A DNA stretch of 64,000 nt from Sulfuricurvum kujiense DSM 16994 (lineage in GTDB: Bacteria > Campylobacterota > Campylobacteria > Campylobacterales > Sulfurimonadaceae): the NCBI RefSeq assembly GCF_000183725.1, contig NC_014762.1, forward strand, positions 1,426,001 through 1,490,000, written 5' to 3'. Below, piece after piece: positions 52,124-58,465 of the stretch. The translations under genes and the position numbers were made by a program. Below the pieces are notes generated by a model. It had not been told where the DNA came from. It did no database searches and was given only the letters and a program-made list of their open reading frames with translations. Position 1 is the stretch's first letter. Each line of letters begins with the position of its first letter.

Positions 52124-54319
52124 TTAGATAGCGGCAATAATTGCGTTAAGTGTAGCACTTGGACGCATTGCTTTTTCAGTTTTAGCAAAATCAGGGTGGA
52201 AGTAACCGCCGATATCTTGTGCTTTACCTTCTACTGAAAGAAGTTCTTCCATAATTTTTGCTTCATTTTCACTCAATGCTTTAGCAACCGGAGCAAAACG
52301 TGCTGCCAATTCAGCATCTACCGTTTGATTTGCAAGAGCTTTTGCCCAGAATTGTGCCAAAAAGAAGTGGCTAGCTTTGTTATCCGGCTCACCCGCTTTA
52401 CGAGAAGGCTCTTTATTGTTGTCCAAATAAGCCGCATTTGCTTCATCAAGCGCAGCAGTCAATGCCGACAACTTGTTGCTTTTTTCGGTTTTGTTAATGT
52501 GACGCATCGCTTCTGCCAAAGCAAGGAACTCACCGAGTGAATCCCAGCGAAGGTGACCCTCATTAACAAATTGGTCTACGTGTTTAGGAGCAGATCCGCC
52601 CGCACCTGTTTCAAACAATCCGCCGCCCGCAAGCAATGGAACGATAGAAAGCATTTTAGCAGATGTTCCGAGTTCTAAGATAGGGAACAAGTCTGTCAAA
52701 TAGTCACGCAAAACGTTACCGGTTGCAGAAATCGTATTTTGTCCTGCACGTACACGTTTTAGTGAGAACGCCATCGCTTTTTCAGGAGCCATGATGTGGT
52801 ACTCAACGTTTGATTTGTTGAATTCCGGAAGATACGCGTTCACTTTTTTGATGATGTTTGCATCATGTGCACGGTTTTCATCCAACCAGAAGACTACCGG
52901 AACGTTTTCGATTTCTGAACGCTCAACCGCAAGACGTACCCAGTCTTTAACCGGAATGTCTTTTGTGCGGGACATACGCCAGATATCACCTTTCTCAACG
53001 TTGAAGCTCATCAAAGCACCGCTTGCATCGCTTACCGTTACAACACCGTCTTCGTTCATTTCAAATGTTGTCGGGTGTGAGCCGTACTCTTCCGCTTTTT
53101 GAGCCATCAAACCGACATTCGATACCGATCCCATTGTAGTAACGTCGAATTGACCGTTGATTTTACAATCTTCGATGATTTCCGAGTACATTGTCGCATA
53201 ACAACGATCCGGGATTGTAACGATACATTGGTTTACTTTTCCGTCCGGTCCCCACATTTTTCCGCCGTCACGTACGACAACCGGAAGCGACGCATCAATG
53301 ATGATGTCGTTCGAGAAGTGAAGATTTGTAATCCCTTTATCCGAATCAACCATCGCCATCGGAGCGCGTGATGCGTATACCGCTTGCATTGCAGCATTGA
53401 TTTCAGCTTGTTTTTCTGCTGAAAGTTTTTGCATTTTCTTCTCAAGATCGCCAAGACCAAGATTCGGGTTAACACCGACCGATTTGAAATCGTCCGCAAA
53501 TTTTTCATAAACGTCTTTGAAGAACACTGAAACCGCATGGCCGAACATGATCGGGTCACTTACTTTCATCATCGTGGCTTTAAGGTGAATCGACCAAAGA
53601 ATCCCTTTTTCTTTTGCTTCATCCATAGACTCAGCCAAGAAAGAGCGAAGTGCTTTAGCAGACATAAATGTACCGTCAAGAACTTCTTTGTCTTTTGCGT
53701 CGATCTCTTTAAGAGTTTTTCCGTTCAAAGCGATCGTCACTTTACCGTCACCGTTTTTGATGATTGACTGCTCGTTTGCATAGAAATCACCGCTGTTCAT
53801 GTGGGCAACGCGAGTTTTTGAACCCTCATCCCATCCACGAAGTTTGTGTGGATTTTTCTTAGCAAAGTTTTTAACCGCAACCGCCGCACGGCGATCCGAG
53901 TTACCTTCACGAAGAACCGGGTTAACCGCTGAACCTAAACATGCAGAATAGCGTGCTTGGATCTCTTTTTCTTCATCATTTTTAGGCTCTTCCGGGTAGT
54001 TCGGAAGATCATAGCCTTGTGATTGAAGCTCTTCAATACACGCTTTAAGCTGTGGAATCGAAGCTGAAATGTTCGGTAATTTGATAATAACACCGTCCGG
54101 TTGAGTTGCAACTACGCCTAATTGTGCAAGATTGTCCGGAATACGTTGAGCGTCTGTCATACGTTCTGGAAATGTTGCGATAACACGACCTGCGAGTGAG
54201 ATATCACTTGTTACGACTTCCACGCCTGCTGCTTTTGTGAATGCATTTACGATCGGTAGTAGCGAGTATGTCGCTAATGCCGGTGCTTCATCAATTACTG
54301 ACCAAATGATTTTTGCCAT
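52124..54319 (-). CDS. icd: monomeric NADP-dependent isocitrate dehydrogenase
   Basis: A 731-residue enzyme of the monomeric IDH class (about 740 aa, unrelated in length to the 415-aa dimeric form). MAKIIWSVIDEAPALATYSL is the class N-terminus; NSDRRAAVAVKNFAKKNPHK and PMAMVDSDKGITNLHFSND follow. It decarboxylates isocitrate oxidatively, or carboxylates 2-oxoglutarate in the reductive cycle. An extended -10 element and AGGAG lie upstream; its terminators separate it from mdh. Confidence 0.97.
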   Translation of the reverse strand: MAKIIWSVIDEAPALATYSLLPIVNAFTKAAGVEVVTSDISLAGRVIATFPERMTDAQRIPDNLAQLGVVATQPDGVIIKLPNISASIPQLKACIEELQSQGYDLPNYPEEPKNDEEKEIQARYSACLGSAVNPVLREGNSDRRAAVAVKNFAKKNPHKLRGWDEGSKTRVAHMNSGDFYANEQSIIKNGDGKVTIALNGKTLKEIDAKDKEVLDGTFMSAKALRSFLAESMDEAKEKGILWSIHLKATMMKVSDPIMFGHAVSVFFKDVYEKFADDFKSVGVNPNLGLGDLEKKMQKLSAEKQAEINAAMQAVYASRAPMAMVDSDKGITNLHFSNDIIIDASLPVVVRDGGKMWGPDGKVNQCIVTIPDRCYATMYSEIIEDCKINGQFDVTTMGSVSNVGLMAQKAEEYGSHPTTFEMNEDGVVTVSDASGALMSFNVEKGDIWRMSRTKDIPVKDWVRLAVERSEIENVPVVFWLDENRAHDANIIKKVNAYLPEFNKSNVEYHIMAPEKAMAFSLKRVRAGQNTISATGNVLRDYLTDLFPILELGTSAKMLSIVPLLAGGGLFETGAGGSAPKHVDQFVNEGHLRWDSLGEFLALAEAMRHINKTEKSNKLSALTAALDEANAAYLDNNKEPSRKAGEPDNKASHFFLAQFWAKALANQTVDAELAARFAPVAKALSENEAKIMEELLSVEGKAQDIGGYFHPDFAKTEKAMRPSATLNAIIAAI

Positions 54320-54420: not shown

Positions 54421-55416
54421 TCATTTTGTAGCATTTACTATGTTTTTATGGTGTGTAGAAAAGTAACTACTGTAGACATGCTCCCCATCCTTACCTCGTA
54501 CGAAATAAAGATAATCGGTATGTGCGGGATGGAGTGCCGCCGCAATGGCTTCTTTGGAAACATTGCATACGGGATATTGAGGCAAACCTTTGTTTTTATA
54601 AGTATTATAGGGGCTTGTATCGGTTCTTATACGACGTGCCGTAACCTTTTGATGTGAGAATTCTCCATAATTTAACGTACCGTCCATTTGGAGTCTCATC
54701 CCTTTTTTGATCCGATTGTCAATAACGGAGCTCACATACGGCATATCGCCAACAGATGAGGCTTCTTTTTGGATAACGGACGCTTTTGTTACGATTTGTA
54801 ACCATTTTTCACTATCGGGTTGTAAAAGATTCTCAGAAGCTATCTTTTTCATTATTCGATCAGATTCGTTCAAGAGATGAACGATCAGTTTCTCTTCACT
54901 GAATTCATTGGGAATGCTGTAAGTTTCAGGGACAAAATTTCCCTCTTTCAAACGGGCATGTTCGTCATACGCTTCACGAAGTTTATTGAGGTCTAATGAA
55001 AGTTCTTTTGCGAGCTGTTGTAAAAAAATCTCCGTAGTCTCTCCCGGAATCAATGTGACGGCTCTGCTCACCGCTTTTGCCGTTGTAAGCCGATAAAGAT
55101 ACCCTATACGTGTCATATTTTCGTCTTTAATGTCAATCCATCCCTGTTGGGGTTTGCCCAATAAACGTAAAATAAATGCATCGATTTTATAGACGTTGAC
55201 CCCTTCGTTTTGGAGGTGTGATATACTTTTAAAGACGGAACCTTTCGGAATATATACGATTTTGGGTGATGTGACGGTGGAGAACAGGTAGGTCATGAAA
55301 GATATAATCATCACCAAAATCATTCCGAAAACCCATAAGAGTATTTTACTTTTTTTAGTTTTTACTTTTTTTCTCGGTTTTTTCACGTTTGTCGCTTTGC
55401 TTGAGGGATTTAGCAT
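54421..55416 (-). CDS. mltG: endolytic murein transglycosylase MltG (YceG)
   Basis: A 331-residue inner-membrane lytic transglycosylase that ends glycan-strand synthesis. A cationic N-terminus (KKPRKKVKTKKSK) and one TM helix (about 28-48) precede the YceG domain. The catalytic glutamate is in ASVIQKEASSVGD, and RIKKGMRLQMDGTLNYGE and GLPQYPVCNVSKEAIAAALHP follow. With the start at 55416, the first 122 bases overlap the divergent YhdP-like gene; a later start (e.g. residue 33) would shrink the overlap but lose the basic tail. Confidence 0.92.
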   Translation of the reverse strand: MLNPSSKATNVKKPRKKVKTKKSKILLWVFGMILVMIISFMTYLFSTVTSPKIVYIPKGSVFKSISHLQNEGVNVYKIDAFILRLLGKPQQGWIDIKDENMTRIGYLYRLTTAKAVSRAVTLIPGETTEIFLQQLAKELSLDLNKLREAYDEHARLKEGNFVPETYSIPNEFSEEKLIVHLLNESDRIMKKIASENLLQPDSEKWLQIVTKASVIQKEASSVGDMPYVSSVIDNRIKKGMRLQMDGTLNYGEFSHQKVTARRIRTDTSPYNTYKNKGLPQYPVCNVSKEAIAAALHPAHTDYLYFVRGKDGEHVYSSYFSTHHKNIVNATK

Positions 55417-58400
55417 TGATCACCTGAAATTAGGTAAGGTCAAAGTTGAGAAATTATACCTAAAATGGGACAACTCCCTTCAGATAAAAGCATCAAAAAT
55501 AGATTTAAGCGGCTTAAAAAACAGTGATGAGCCTTTTACGCTAAAACCCCTCTCTAAACTTCCCCGATACATACGCTGGACTGAAAAGTGGGTAGAATCC
55601 ATTCAAATTGATATTATTAAGTATGACGACAACGTGGCTTCATTGTTTTATCGTAAAGGTGAAGTAGGTACACTATCCGTAGGAGATGAATCGAACCGTA
55701 CACAAGGGACATTTGAGCTTAATGAGAGGGACTTTGCCGTCACTTTGCCCTCCTATGCATTGAAAAACGGTATTTTTTCAACCAAACTGCATATTAATCT
55801 TCTTAATCAGCATCTTAACGCCGCCATCATGGCGAATTTTCCACAAACACCTCGCTTAACACTCAATATTTCCGGAGATTCCGATTTGCTGAGTTTCTCC
55901 CTCTTCGCCGATAACTCGTTGACAACACTCAAGCCGTTAATCGATTTTTTCAATCTCGATCCCGAAATTACCCCATGGATTGTCGACTACGCAAAAGCCT
56001 CATCTCTACATCTAAAGCGATTACACGGGACATGCCATTATGATACCCCCGAAGAGCTTATAGAAACACTTACGGCGGATGCTACCGTCATTGATGCGTC
56101 ATATACCTTTGCTCAAGGGTTTGAGCCTATTCGCTCCCCTCAAATCGATTTGAATTTTCGCAAAGGAAAACTTTATATCTTCCCTAAAAATGGGACGTTT
56201 TATACGCTTCCTACCGAACAGAGCCATGTAATCATCGATTTTATGACACCGCATACTATGCTGGATGCCTATATCCGGACACAGCATGCCAAACTCAATG
56301 ATCCGATTTTATCTCTTTTGACATTTTACGATATCCATTTGCCGATCAAACAACAAAAAGGGGAATGTGCGGTAGATTTAAATCTCTCCATTAATCTCCA
56401 TTCGCTGGATACGACCGGCAAAGGGGAATTCATCCCTACCGCTTCTGAAATCCTACTCGATAAAATCTTGCTCAACACCGAAAACGGGATCGTAAAAGTC
56501 AATCGAAATCATGTAACGTTTGAAAATTTTATCGCCCATTACGGCAATGACGTTGCCCATGCGAACGTCACCGGTGAGTACGATACCAAAAAAGAGAGAG
56601 GGGTCGTTTCCATTAATGCCTACGCAGTCTCACCCGTAAAAGGGAGCCTAAGCCTTTTTGATTCTAAAGAGCCGCTTCGTGTCGCCTATGTCATCGCCCC
56701 GGACGGCGATACTCTCAATGTAGAAAAATCTCACTGGAACCTTTTAGGAGAAAAATTAACGATTGAAGGGTTCCGTGCTCCGTTTGATTATCATCGTGCC
56801 TATACGGCAATCAATTCAGTCCCTTTTATCCTCTCCGATTCCGTTAAAGGAAAAATCAATGCCGCATTTGACGGTACAAAAAAACTATCCGACATTAAAG
56901 TCCGTCTGAATGAATTTAAACTTGGCGAAGTCAAGCTCAACCAATCCCAATTTGATGTAGATTTGCACTACAGTGACGAAATGCTGAAACTACGGATCAG
57001 CAGCGCTTCCGCATGGTCGATTCATCAGCTCCCTCTTCTCGTATCCCCCTTTAGTGCAATCCTTAAAAATGATCTTATAACATTTGATCAGATTGAAACT
57101 GTACTGGGTGATTTATTCAAAGGGAACTTTACGGGAACCTATCGCATGAATACCCATAAGGGGACAATCCGCCTGAGTAACATGATTCCTATTTCTCCTA
57201 AATTGACCCCGATCATAGAATCTAAAGAGTCGATCAATTTAATCGTTGACGCTACAAGCGATCCGATCCAAATCGATGCCCCCGAGCTAAAAGCCCATTT
57301 TTCGACCATATCAACCGGATGGAAAATTTTATTGAACGACATTTCTCTGATTTCCAAAAAATCCCCTATTTTACGACGCTACAATATCAATAACGGCTAT
57401 TTGAATCTCTACTATACGGGAGAGAGTTCCCGCTTCCTTTTTAACGGAGAAATTGACTACCTCTATCCGCTCATGGTCGTCAACAATCTTCCGATAGAAC
57501 ATTACAAGTTTAGCGGCTCACATCAAAACGATGTCACACAAATCAGGGTTAACGACCGTTTAACGATTACCCATTCTCCCGAAAATATCTATATACGAGC
57601 TAACAATACCGGCCTGAACATGCCGGTTTTATTCAAATTTCTCTCTGCACACACCGAAGAGAGTGATGTATCATCATCTGACGATGCGTCAAAGCCCATC
57701 AATATTCATGCGACCAATTCCTATTTGTATCTCATGAAAGACAGAAAGATCGTGACCGATACGCTAGACGCGACACTCAACAACGATAATTTCGATGCAT
57801 CGCTCCAGCATATGAACGGTTCGGCAACCCTCAAAATACGAAATAATCTTTTCTCAATCAACGGGAAAGGATTTAACGATAAGTTTATGGAACATCTTTT
57901 TGCCCTCAGCGATTTCAGCGGCGGAACCTTTGCTTTCGAAGCAAAAGGGAAAACCGATTCTTTTGACGGATTGATGAGAGTTGAAAATACCATTCTTAAA
58001 GATTATAAAGTCCTCAACAACGTACTGGCATTTGTAAATACCGTCCCATCCTTGGCAACATTTTCCCTTCCGACCTATAATTCCAAAGGGTTGCCGGTTA
58101 ATGAAGGATATGCCCATTTCGCTTATCAAAAAGGGATCGTTTCCGTCGACAATTTCACCCTTAACTCGCCTGAAATCAAAATCACCGGTAACGCTCAGGC
58201 CAATTTTAATGCCAATCAGCTTGATGGGGTACTGACACTGAAAACCGATTTGGGATCGAAACTCGGCAAAGTGCCGATGGTAGGGTATATTCTTCTGGGG
58301 GAAGACGGCTCGCTCTCTACTACGCTGACGCTCAGCGGAAAACTCGATGATCCTAAAATCAGTACCGCTATCGCCAAAGAGATCGTCACCGCACCTTTTA

Positions 58401-58465
58401 ATATCCTGCGAAGAACGTTGGTTTATCCGTTTTTATGGATGCTGGACGATAAAAATAAAAAATAA
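55295..58465 (+). CDS. YhdP/AsmA-like envelope protein
   Basis: A 1056-residue protein with one N-terminal TM helix (about 16-38) and a very long beta-rich periplasmic region of the AsmA-like superfamily (DUF3971/YhdP type). The C-terminal AsmA-like segment (NANQLDGVLTLKTDLGSKLG, then LSGKLDDPKISTAIAKEI) is typical. YhdP-like proteins form grooves that move phospholipids to the outer membrane; this role is inferred. It starts inside mltG on the other strand and ends one base from the convergent kinase gene. Confidence 0.88.
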   Translation: MKDIIITKIIPKTHKSILLFLVFTFFLGFFTFVALLEGFSIDHLKLGKVKVEKLYLKWDNSLQIKASKIDLSGLKNSDEPFTLKPLSKLPRYIRWTEKWVESIQIDIIKYDDNVASLFYRKGEVGTLSVGDESNRTQGTFELNERDFAVTLPSYALKNGIFSTKLHINLLNQHLNAAIMANFPQTPRLTLNISGDSDLLSFSLFADNSLTTLKPLIDFFNLDPEITPWIVDYAKASSLHLKRLHGTCHYDTPEELIETLTADATVIDASYTFAQGFEPIRSPQIDLNFRKGKLYIFPKNGTFYTLPTEQSHVIIDFMTPHTMLDAYIRTQHAKLNDPILSLLTFYDIHLPIKQQKGECAVDLNLSINLHSLDTTGKGEFIPTASEILLDKILLNTENGIVKVNRNHVTFENFIAHYGNDVAHANVTGEYDTKKERGVVSINAYAVSPVKGSLSLFDSKEPLRVAYVIAPDGDTLNVEKSHWNLLGEKLTIEGFRAPFDYHRAYTAINSVPFILSDSVKGKINAAFDGTKKLSDIKVRLNEFKLGEVKLNQSQFDVDLHYSDEMLKLRISSASAWSIHQLPLLVSPFSAILKNDLITFDQIETVLGDLFKGNFTGTYRMNTHKGTIRLSNMIPISPKLTPIIESKESINLIVDATSDPIQIDAPELKAHFSTISTGWKILLNDISLISKKSPILRRYNINNGYLNLYYTGESSRFLFNGEIDYLYPLMVVNNLPIEHYKFSGSHQNDVTQIRVNDRLTITHSPENIYIRANNTGLNMPVLFKFLSAHTEESDVSSSDDASKPINIHATNSYLYLMKDRKIVTDTLDATLNNDNFDASLQHMNGSATLKIRNNLFSINGKGFNDKFMEHLFALSDFSGGTFAFEAKGKTDSFDGLMRVENTILKDYKVLNNVLAFVNTVPSLATFSLPTYNSKGLPVNEGYAHFAYQKGIVSVDNFTLNSPEIKITGNAQANFNANQLDGVLTLKTDLGSKLGKVPMVGYILLGEDGSLSTTLTLSGKLDDPKISTAIAKEIVTAPFNILRRTLVYPFLWMLDDKNKK

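Follow-up and report, generated by a model that had tools for sequence, protein, structure and literature searches.

The first codons of mltG and of a yhdP-like gene in Sulfuricurvum kujiense DSM 16994 are written on the same DNA and read in opposite directions. This locus raises the question of how one short stretch can encode two membrane anchors, where the promoters of two such genes can lie, and whether the layout links the expression of one gene to that of the other. The locus was analyzed within a window of 64,000 nucleotides, the whole stretch of DNA under study, whose numbering is used below, and was compared with the corresponding loci of relatives.

Two membrane anchors on one stretch of DNA

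MltG was identified by its YceG domain in Pfam (PF02618; 200.1 bits against a curated cut-off of 32.4, 6.6e-59), and TIGR00247 also matched this protein. The product of the divergent gene matched the YhdP model PF13116 with 104.7 bits (curated cut-off 46, 4.9e-30), the best match covering the C-terminal part alone (model positions 1026-1224). On their coordinates, the two genes form a predicted divergent overlapping pair with opposite strands and common 5' coding ends (Table 1). The overlap measures 122 nt if mltG is read from ATG 55416 and 92 nt if it is read from GTG 55386, and the coordinates place third codon positions opposite third and first opposite second. The initial annotation had stated that the first 122 bases of the two genes are shared in antiparallel orientation and that both strands encode a cationic or polar start followed by a hydrophobic helix; the ORF coordinates and the hydrophobic windows agree with these statements. 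The two helix windows abut back to back, that of YhdP running from 55343 on the forward strand and that of MltG from 55344 on the reverse strand, and each helix sits mostly opposite the polar or basic head of the other protein.

Table 1. Features of the mltG/yhdP locus, in window coordinates.
Feature	Position	Strand	Details and basis
mltG (endolytic murein transglycosylase, YceG family)	54421-55416	-	331 aa; ORF, Pfam, TIGR00247, start codons of relatives
mltG starts	ATG 55416; alternative GTG 55386	-	ORF list, start codons in relatives
yhdP-like gene	55295-58465	+	1056 aa, ATG start 55295; ORF, PF13116
Coding overlap mltG/yhdP	55295-55416	both	122 nt; third codon positions facing
MltG membrane helix, best 19-residue hydrophobic window	55288-55344	-	
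YhdP membrane helix, best 19-residue hydrophobic window	55343-55399	+	
Shine-Dalgarno-like AGGTGATC for mltG ATG 55416	55418-55425	-	duplex energy -9.1
Shine-Dalgarno-like AGGTAGGT for yhdP ATG 55295	55286-55293	+	duplex energy -6.4
Predicted yhdP promoter, extended -10 TGATATACT	55219-55227	+	inside mltG codons 64-66
Predicted mltG promoter, -10 TATAAT	55453-55458	-	inside yhdP codons 53-55 (K-L-Y)
Predicted overlap of mRNA 5' ends	55234-55446	both	about 213 nt; inferred from the two -10 elements

Membrane anchors that share DNA are easy to obtain, because a phase with facing third positions turns a Lys codon into Phe or Leu on the opposite strand. When the MltG head was recoded at random with synonymous codons, 55% of the sequences gave an open antisense frame with a helix, and shuffled MltG heads did so in 24% of cases (0% in the other two phases). 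The idea that two helices on the same DNA are surprising in themselves was rejected on these figures; the double helix is cheap, and its preservation is the notable part. The overlap offers a simple code-level reason for two membrane anchors sharing DNA. Within it, the facing third positions were the most variable, with an entropy of 1.0-1.1 compared to 0.3-0.8 at first and second positions. Outside the overlap, third-position entropy reached 1.4 in mltG and 1.7 in yhdP.

The extent of the overlap depends on the start codons. A predicted Shine-Dalgarno-like site, which is a strong one, stands ahead of the mltG ATG at 55416. The yhdP ATG occupies the same position in most relatives within the family, and the mltG start position shifts between relatives. 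Codon 1 of mltG is ATG in S. kujiense and ATA in its closest relative (L003); across Sulfuricurvum, it was ATG in 16 of 35 loci and ATA, ATC or ATT in 15 of 35. Codon 11 (55386) was GTG or ATG in 20 of the 35 loci, including 18 of the 19 that lack ATG at codon 1. Taken together, 34 of 35 loci had an mltG ATG at the position of 55416 (relative position 0) or an ATG or GTG at relative position -30. S. kujiense has both ATG 55416 and GTG 55386, the GTG being common to its nearest relatives, and elsewhere in the family an mltG ATG often lies at -51. Every one of these options (codon 1, codon 11, -51) still gives an overlap. According to the initial annotation, the overlap would largely vanish if MltG began near residue 33, and the mobility of mltG start codons among relatives could be taken to favor such a start-site artefact. 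However, a start at or after residue 33 would truncate the helix, and the start codons of the 34 loci also argue against it; we found this case unsupported and consider it extremely improbable.

Conservation of the arrangement

mltG was found in 36 of 41 Sulfuricurvum genomes and yhdP in 33 of 41, 4 of these 33 being weak fragments. Order-wide, mltG was present in 293 and yhdP in 265 of 298 genomes. The initial annotation had pointed to relatives as the place to check the overlap, and there it persists: a divergent frame 150 codons long or longer lay opposite mltG in 143 of 153 genomes (16 families, 47 genera), a count that is not an unbiased frequency because the 153 genomes were chosen. In all 143, a YhdP tblastn hit was obtained at the same locus on the strand opposite MltG. 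The 10 genomes without a divergent frame were 7 of Sulfuricurvum, with yhdP broken or gone, and 3 of family f6. The same pair is presumably represented by Cj0529c/Cj0530 in Campylobacter jejuni and HP0587/HP0586 in Helicobacter pylori.

The sample consisted of 36 genomes of the genus, 24 loci from an order-wide mltG search, 75 stretches selected from the results of that search rather than every result listed, and 18 of 20 loci taken by the place of yhdP; relatives are non-independent samples in all counts given here. Loci L032-L053 stand outside the 153, and most of them appear to be repeats of the same genomes. Four of these left-out loci were checked, among which L049 (Sulfurimonas) and L051 (Helicobacter) carried both -10 sites, described below, in the expected form. 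L161 and L162 (genus g39) were also set aside, with no MltG hit in the fetched stretch and the two genes not adjacent; since their genes are apart, they count against universal conservation.

When the last ATG before each helix was taken as the start, the overlap was positive in all 120 genomes with ATG on both sides, 23 of the 143 falling outside this count for want of an ATG on one side or the other. The median was 66.5 nt, with values from 2 nt up and at least 50 nt in 98 of 120, and a few of the large overlaps depend on far-upstream ATGs (G037, G041). When any start codon nearest each helix was allowed, the overlap was positive in 136 of 141 genomes and absent in 5. Helix edges lay at most 15 nt apart in 131 of 143 genomes, and one locus (L176) had no helix in the divergent frame near the overlap. 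The back-to-back geometry of the predicted helices is more than chance and recurs in relatives. A phylum-wide search with the motif pattern matched 2 of 397 genomes, all inside the order, and a class-wide search gave matches from the order only, the arrangement not being found outside it in these searches. As judged from the genomes compared, the head-to-head overlap of these genes, which encode two predicted envelope proteins anchored in the inner membrane, is old and has been kept across most of the families examined of one order, taken as Campylobacterales.

Second copies and other neighbors of mltG were also observed. Some genomes of family f5 carry two mltG-like copies (L211, L212, L213). 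No divergent yhdP was seen at the second mltG copy in G063 or at either copy in G078. In G102 (L217), yhdP lies on a separate contig, and the mltG start is faced by a different open frame of ~440 codons.

Predicted promoters in the codons of the partner gene

Synonymous codon identity, corrected for amino acids, was raised in the overlap and past it on both sides. In the genus, it was 0.677 in yhdP codons 18-37 (0.474 expected) and 0.722 in yhdP codons 51-60 (0.536 expected). mltG codons 61-70, with 0.701 against 0.517 expected, spell TGATATACT ahead of yhdP. On the other side, yhdP codon 53 ended in A in all 29 genus genomes and codon 54 was TTA in 26 and GTA in 3; read on the opposite strand, these codons give TATAAT (or TATACT) ahead of mltG. 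The sigma-70 promoters of C. jejuni and H. pylori carry TGxTATAAT or gnTAnaAT and no clear -35, according to passages of PMC3656092 and PMC3847290. TGATATACT is one base off TGxTATAAT, and the mltG site in this window is TATAAT without the TG of an extended -10, so that both have the form of putative Campylobacterota sigma-70 -10 elements. A scan for -35/-10 combinations found no pair, and the group has no clear -35 boxes.

At the mltG site, TANAAT was found in 119 of 131 genomes (12 of the 143, with no recognisable motif, were left out) against 39.4 (sd 4.5) expected from the amino acids and each genome's own codon usage; with one genome per genus, the figures were 37.1 against 13.7, of 40. 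Counted by position, the mltG -10 was present in 119 of 143 genomes versus 302 of 3146 background windows. The extended -10 of yhdP, under a strict pattern of TGN followed by TATAAT, TATACT or TACAAT, was present in 123 of 143 versus 20 of 1006. The distance from -10 to -10, start to start, was 231 bp in 101 of 115 genomes. Neither codon usage nor background comes near to explaining how strongly the two predicted -10 elements are conserved. The strict yhdP -10 was missing in 20 of 143 genomes; the two g49 genomes in the sample and 3 of the 4 from family f14 belong to this group. Among these 20, 13 keep GNTANAAT in the same stretch, and the two g49 genomes have neither form. The mltG -10 was missing throughout f14 (0/4), f4 (0/1) and f15 (0/1), and was absent in 11 of 59 genomes of f1. 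The proposal that each promoter lies inside the coding sequence of the other gene, made in the initial annotation, accords with these two conserved predicted elements. A shared bidirectional promoter between the genes was rejected, as the conserved -10 elements flank the shared stretch and point toward one another.

Natural losses and separations of yhdP served as controls. Within Sulfuricurvum, the yhdP -10 was present in 29 of 29 genomes with intact yhdP and in 0 of 7 without it (Fisher p 1.2e-7, kinship ignored), and the mltG frame was open in all 7. yhdP is lost or broken beside the open mltG in L019, L020, L022, L028, L054, L082 and L083; L019 lies at a contig end, where an early stop was the sole basis for calling yhdP lost. 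Among the seven, the decayed promoters vary in sequence, which suggests several separate loss events. Decay is slight in L019, L020, L028 and L082, where the hexamer is one base off TATACT, the hexamer of the genus. Of the seven genomes, L019, L028 and L083 have an exact mltG -10 near its place, L020 and L082 have one with a single mismatch, and none was found there in L022 and L054. With slight decay at the yhdP site in four genomes and an exact mltG -10 in no more than three, the two sites contrast only modestly. The yhdP -10 was also absent from all 16 other mltG loci without a divergent yhdP, which are other families or second copies (3 belong to the 153); L211 has TATAAT without TG. In both g39 genomes read (2 of 2), mltG and yhdP are open and sit on separate contigs; neither mltG carries the yhdP -10, and the mltG -10 codons are absent from the yhdP of L161 and were not located in that of L162. 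This is the only genus, among the genomes read, in which both genes were found apart, and since both are open there the arrangement is not indispensable. These comparisons link the predicted yhdP -10 to the presence of yhdP beside mltG.

Other conserved elements were seen in mltG. An inverted repeat, GTTACGATTTGTAAC, lies inside the gene at 54788-54802. Its codons are near-invariant in the genus (GTA 30/30, ACA 30/30, TTA 29/30), and GTTAC-N5-GTAAC occurs nowhere else in the window. A single exact copy of the 18-base form exists in the genome. The repeat has the look of an operator or some other DNA element. At the 3' end of mltG, the final 31 codons (54424-54516) had a synonymous conservation of 0.77 against 0.54 expected; they may belong to the promoter region of the next gene downstream (52124-54319).

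Possible coupling, rival explanations and known systems

Transcription starts were placed 7 nt past each -10. Each predicted sigma-70 promoter is written in the codons of the other gene, and the two would fire toward each other from ~231 bp apart. Since the promoters face each other, the predicted mRNAs overlap at their 5' ends (Table 1), and this overlap would take in the ribosome binding sites of both genes. Colliding polymerases and double-stranded RNA at the 5' ends would be expected, and strong use of one promoter would damp the other gene; from collision and 5' pairing we hence infer mutual damping and not co-activation. The layout may tie the expression of mltG to that of yhdP, and a link of peptidoglycan termination to outer-membrane lipid supply, as suggested in the initial annotation, is possible, but facing promoters predict a sign opposite to that of a joint supply model. 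Persistence would probably be helped by lock-in, because neither gene could move without losing its promoter. To a single explanation that combines the conserved overlap, the two anchors, the embedded facing promoters and mutual damping, we assign a probability of roughly 0.62. That the overlap is a selected, order-wide mutual-repression switch, setting the ratio of glycan-strand termination by MltG to phospholipid transport by YhdP, seems doubtful to us.

A serious rival is frozen lock-in without regulation, in which an ancestral chance overlap left two immovable genes and collisions are too rare to matter. The phase makes an antisense helix easy, as the 55% of MltG-head recodings indicate, so the origin of the overlap needs no selection for coupling; in addition, where yhdP is lost its promoter stops matching and mltG persists. 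On the other hand, the g39 pair is separated with both genes open, which means that lock-in is not absolute, and 101 of 115 genomes have a spacing of exactly 231 bp, which constraints on the coding sequence could nevertheless account for. We regard frozen lock-in as a real possibility at clearly less than even odds. The -10 elements might also be look-alikes, produced in A+T-rich genomes by conservation of the proteins (of KLYIKLD, and of those residues in MltG that are encoded opposite the yhdP site), and in most families KLY is conserved as a motif. The 119 occurrences at the mltG site, however, stand against an expectation of 39.4 that already allows for amino acids and codon usage, wherever Leu precedes Tyr in the genus its codon was TTA (26 of 26, expected identity 0.24), and the yhdP -10 is gone where yhdP is lost or elsewhere and MltG is kept. 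An origin as by-products is thus very unlikely.

Coupling could also be positive. RNase III would then trim the paired 5' ends into shorter, better-translated mRNAs and raise both genes, a model put forward for divergent S. aureus genes, whose overlapping 5'UTRs are described as processed in this manner in PMC3386247. At the present locus the overlap spans start codons and coding sequence, and for this reason cutting would be expected to destroy the messages rather than trim them; positive coupling appears improbable. For the choice between mutual damping and lock-in, the many-family overlap, the predicted embedded promoters, and the natural losses and separations as controls make this locus a clean place to test regulation against lock-in.

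In the excludons of Listeria and other bacteria, one transcript is the mRNA of one gene and the antisense RNA of its divergent neighbor, and RNA mapping has revealed the long antisense leader on which such systems depend. The predicted mltG or yhdP transcript would likewise be antisense to the divergent neighbor; unlike in an excludon, the transcript overlap is short, coding and predicted from -10 elements. Divergent mRNAs with 5' ends that can pair are also known for tagG/tagH and pdf1/SA0943 of S. aureus, in the relevant part of PMC3386247, where the overlap of untranslated leaders was measured. In mltG/yhdP, the RNA overlap is predicted, and it would include coding sequence and ribosome binding sites too. 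Antisense promoters in E. coli repress in proportion to promoter strength, in the portion of PMC4731013 cited here. The mltG and yhdP promoters would similarly fire against each other's genes, but the interference system of that paper is synthetic.

Searches of open-licence papers found no title or abstract opening that deals with the mltG/yhdP overlap. Of 46 genes for which C. jejuni and H. pylori both show antisense starts, only 2 have them at the same position, according to the cited part of PMC3847290, so an arrangement as widely kept as mltG/yhdP stands out. In the 58-species table of PMC2174442, the divergent type makes up 331 of 14,958 overlaps by our own sum. Passages of the same survey describe divergent overlaps as the least frequent bacterial class, probably because promoters need space, and give 123:213 as their commonest phase. 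mltG/yhdP resembles these pairs in its antiparallel 5' overlap and its 123:213 phase, and differs from them in a long overlap kept in many families, in its two anchors, and in having both predicted promoters within codons. The divergent overlapping pair is thus an already known and rare kind of gene arrangement, of which mltG/yhdP, on the genomes compared, is an unusually conserved variant.
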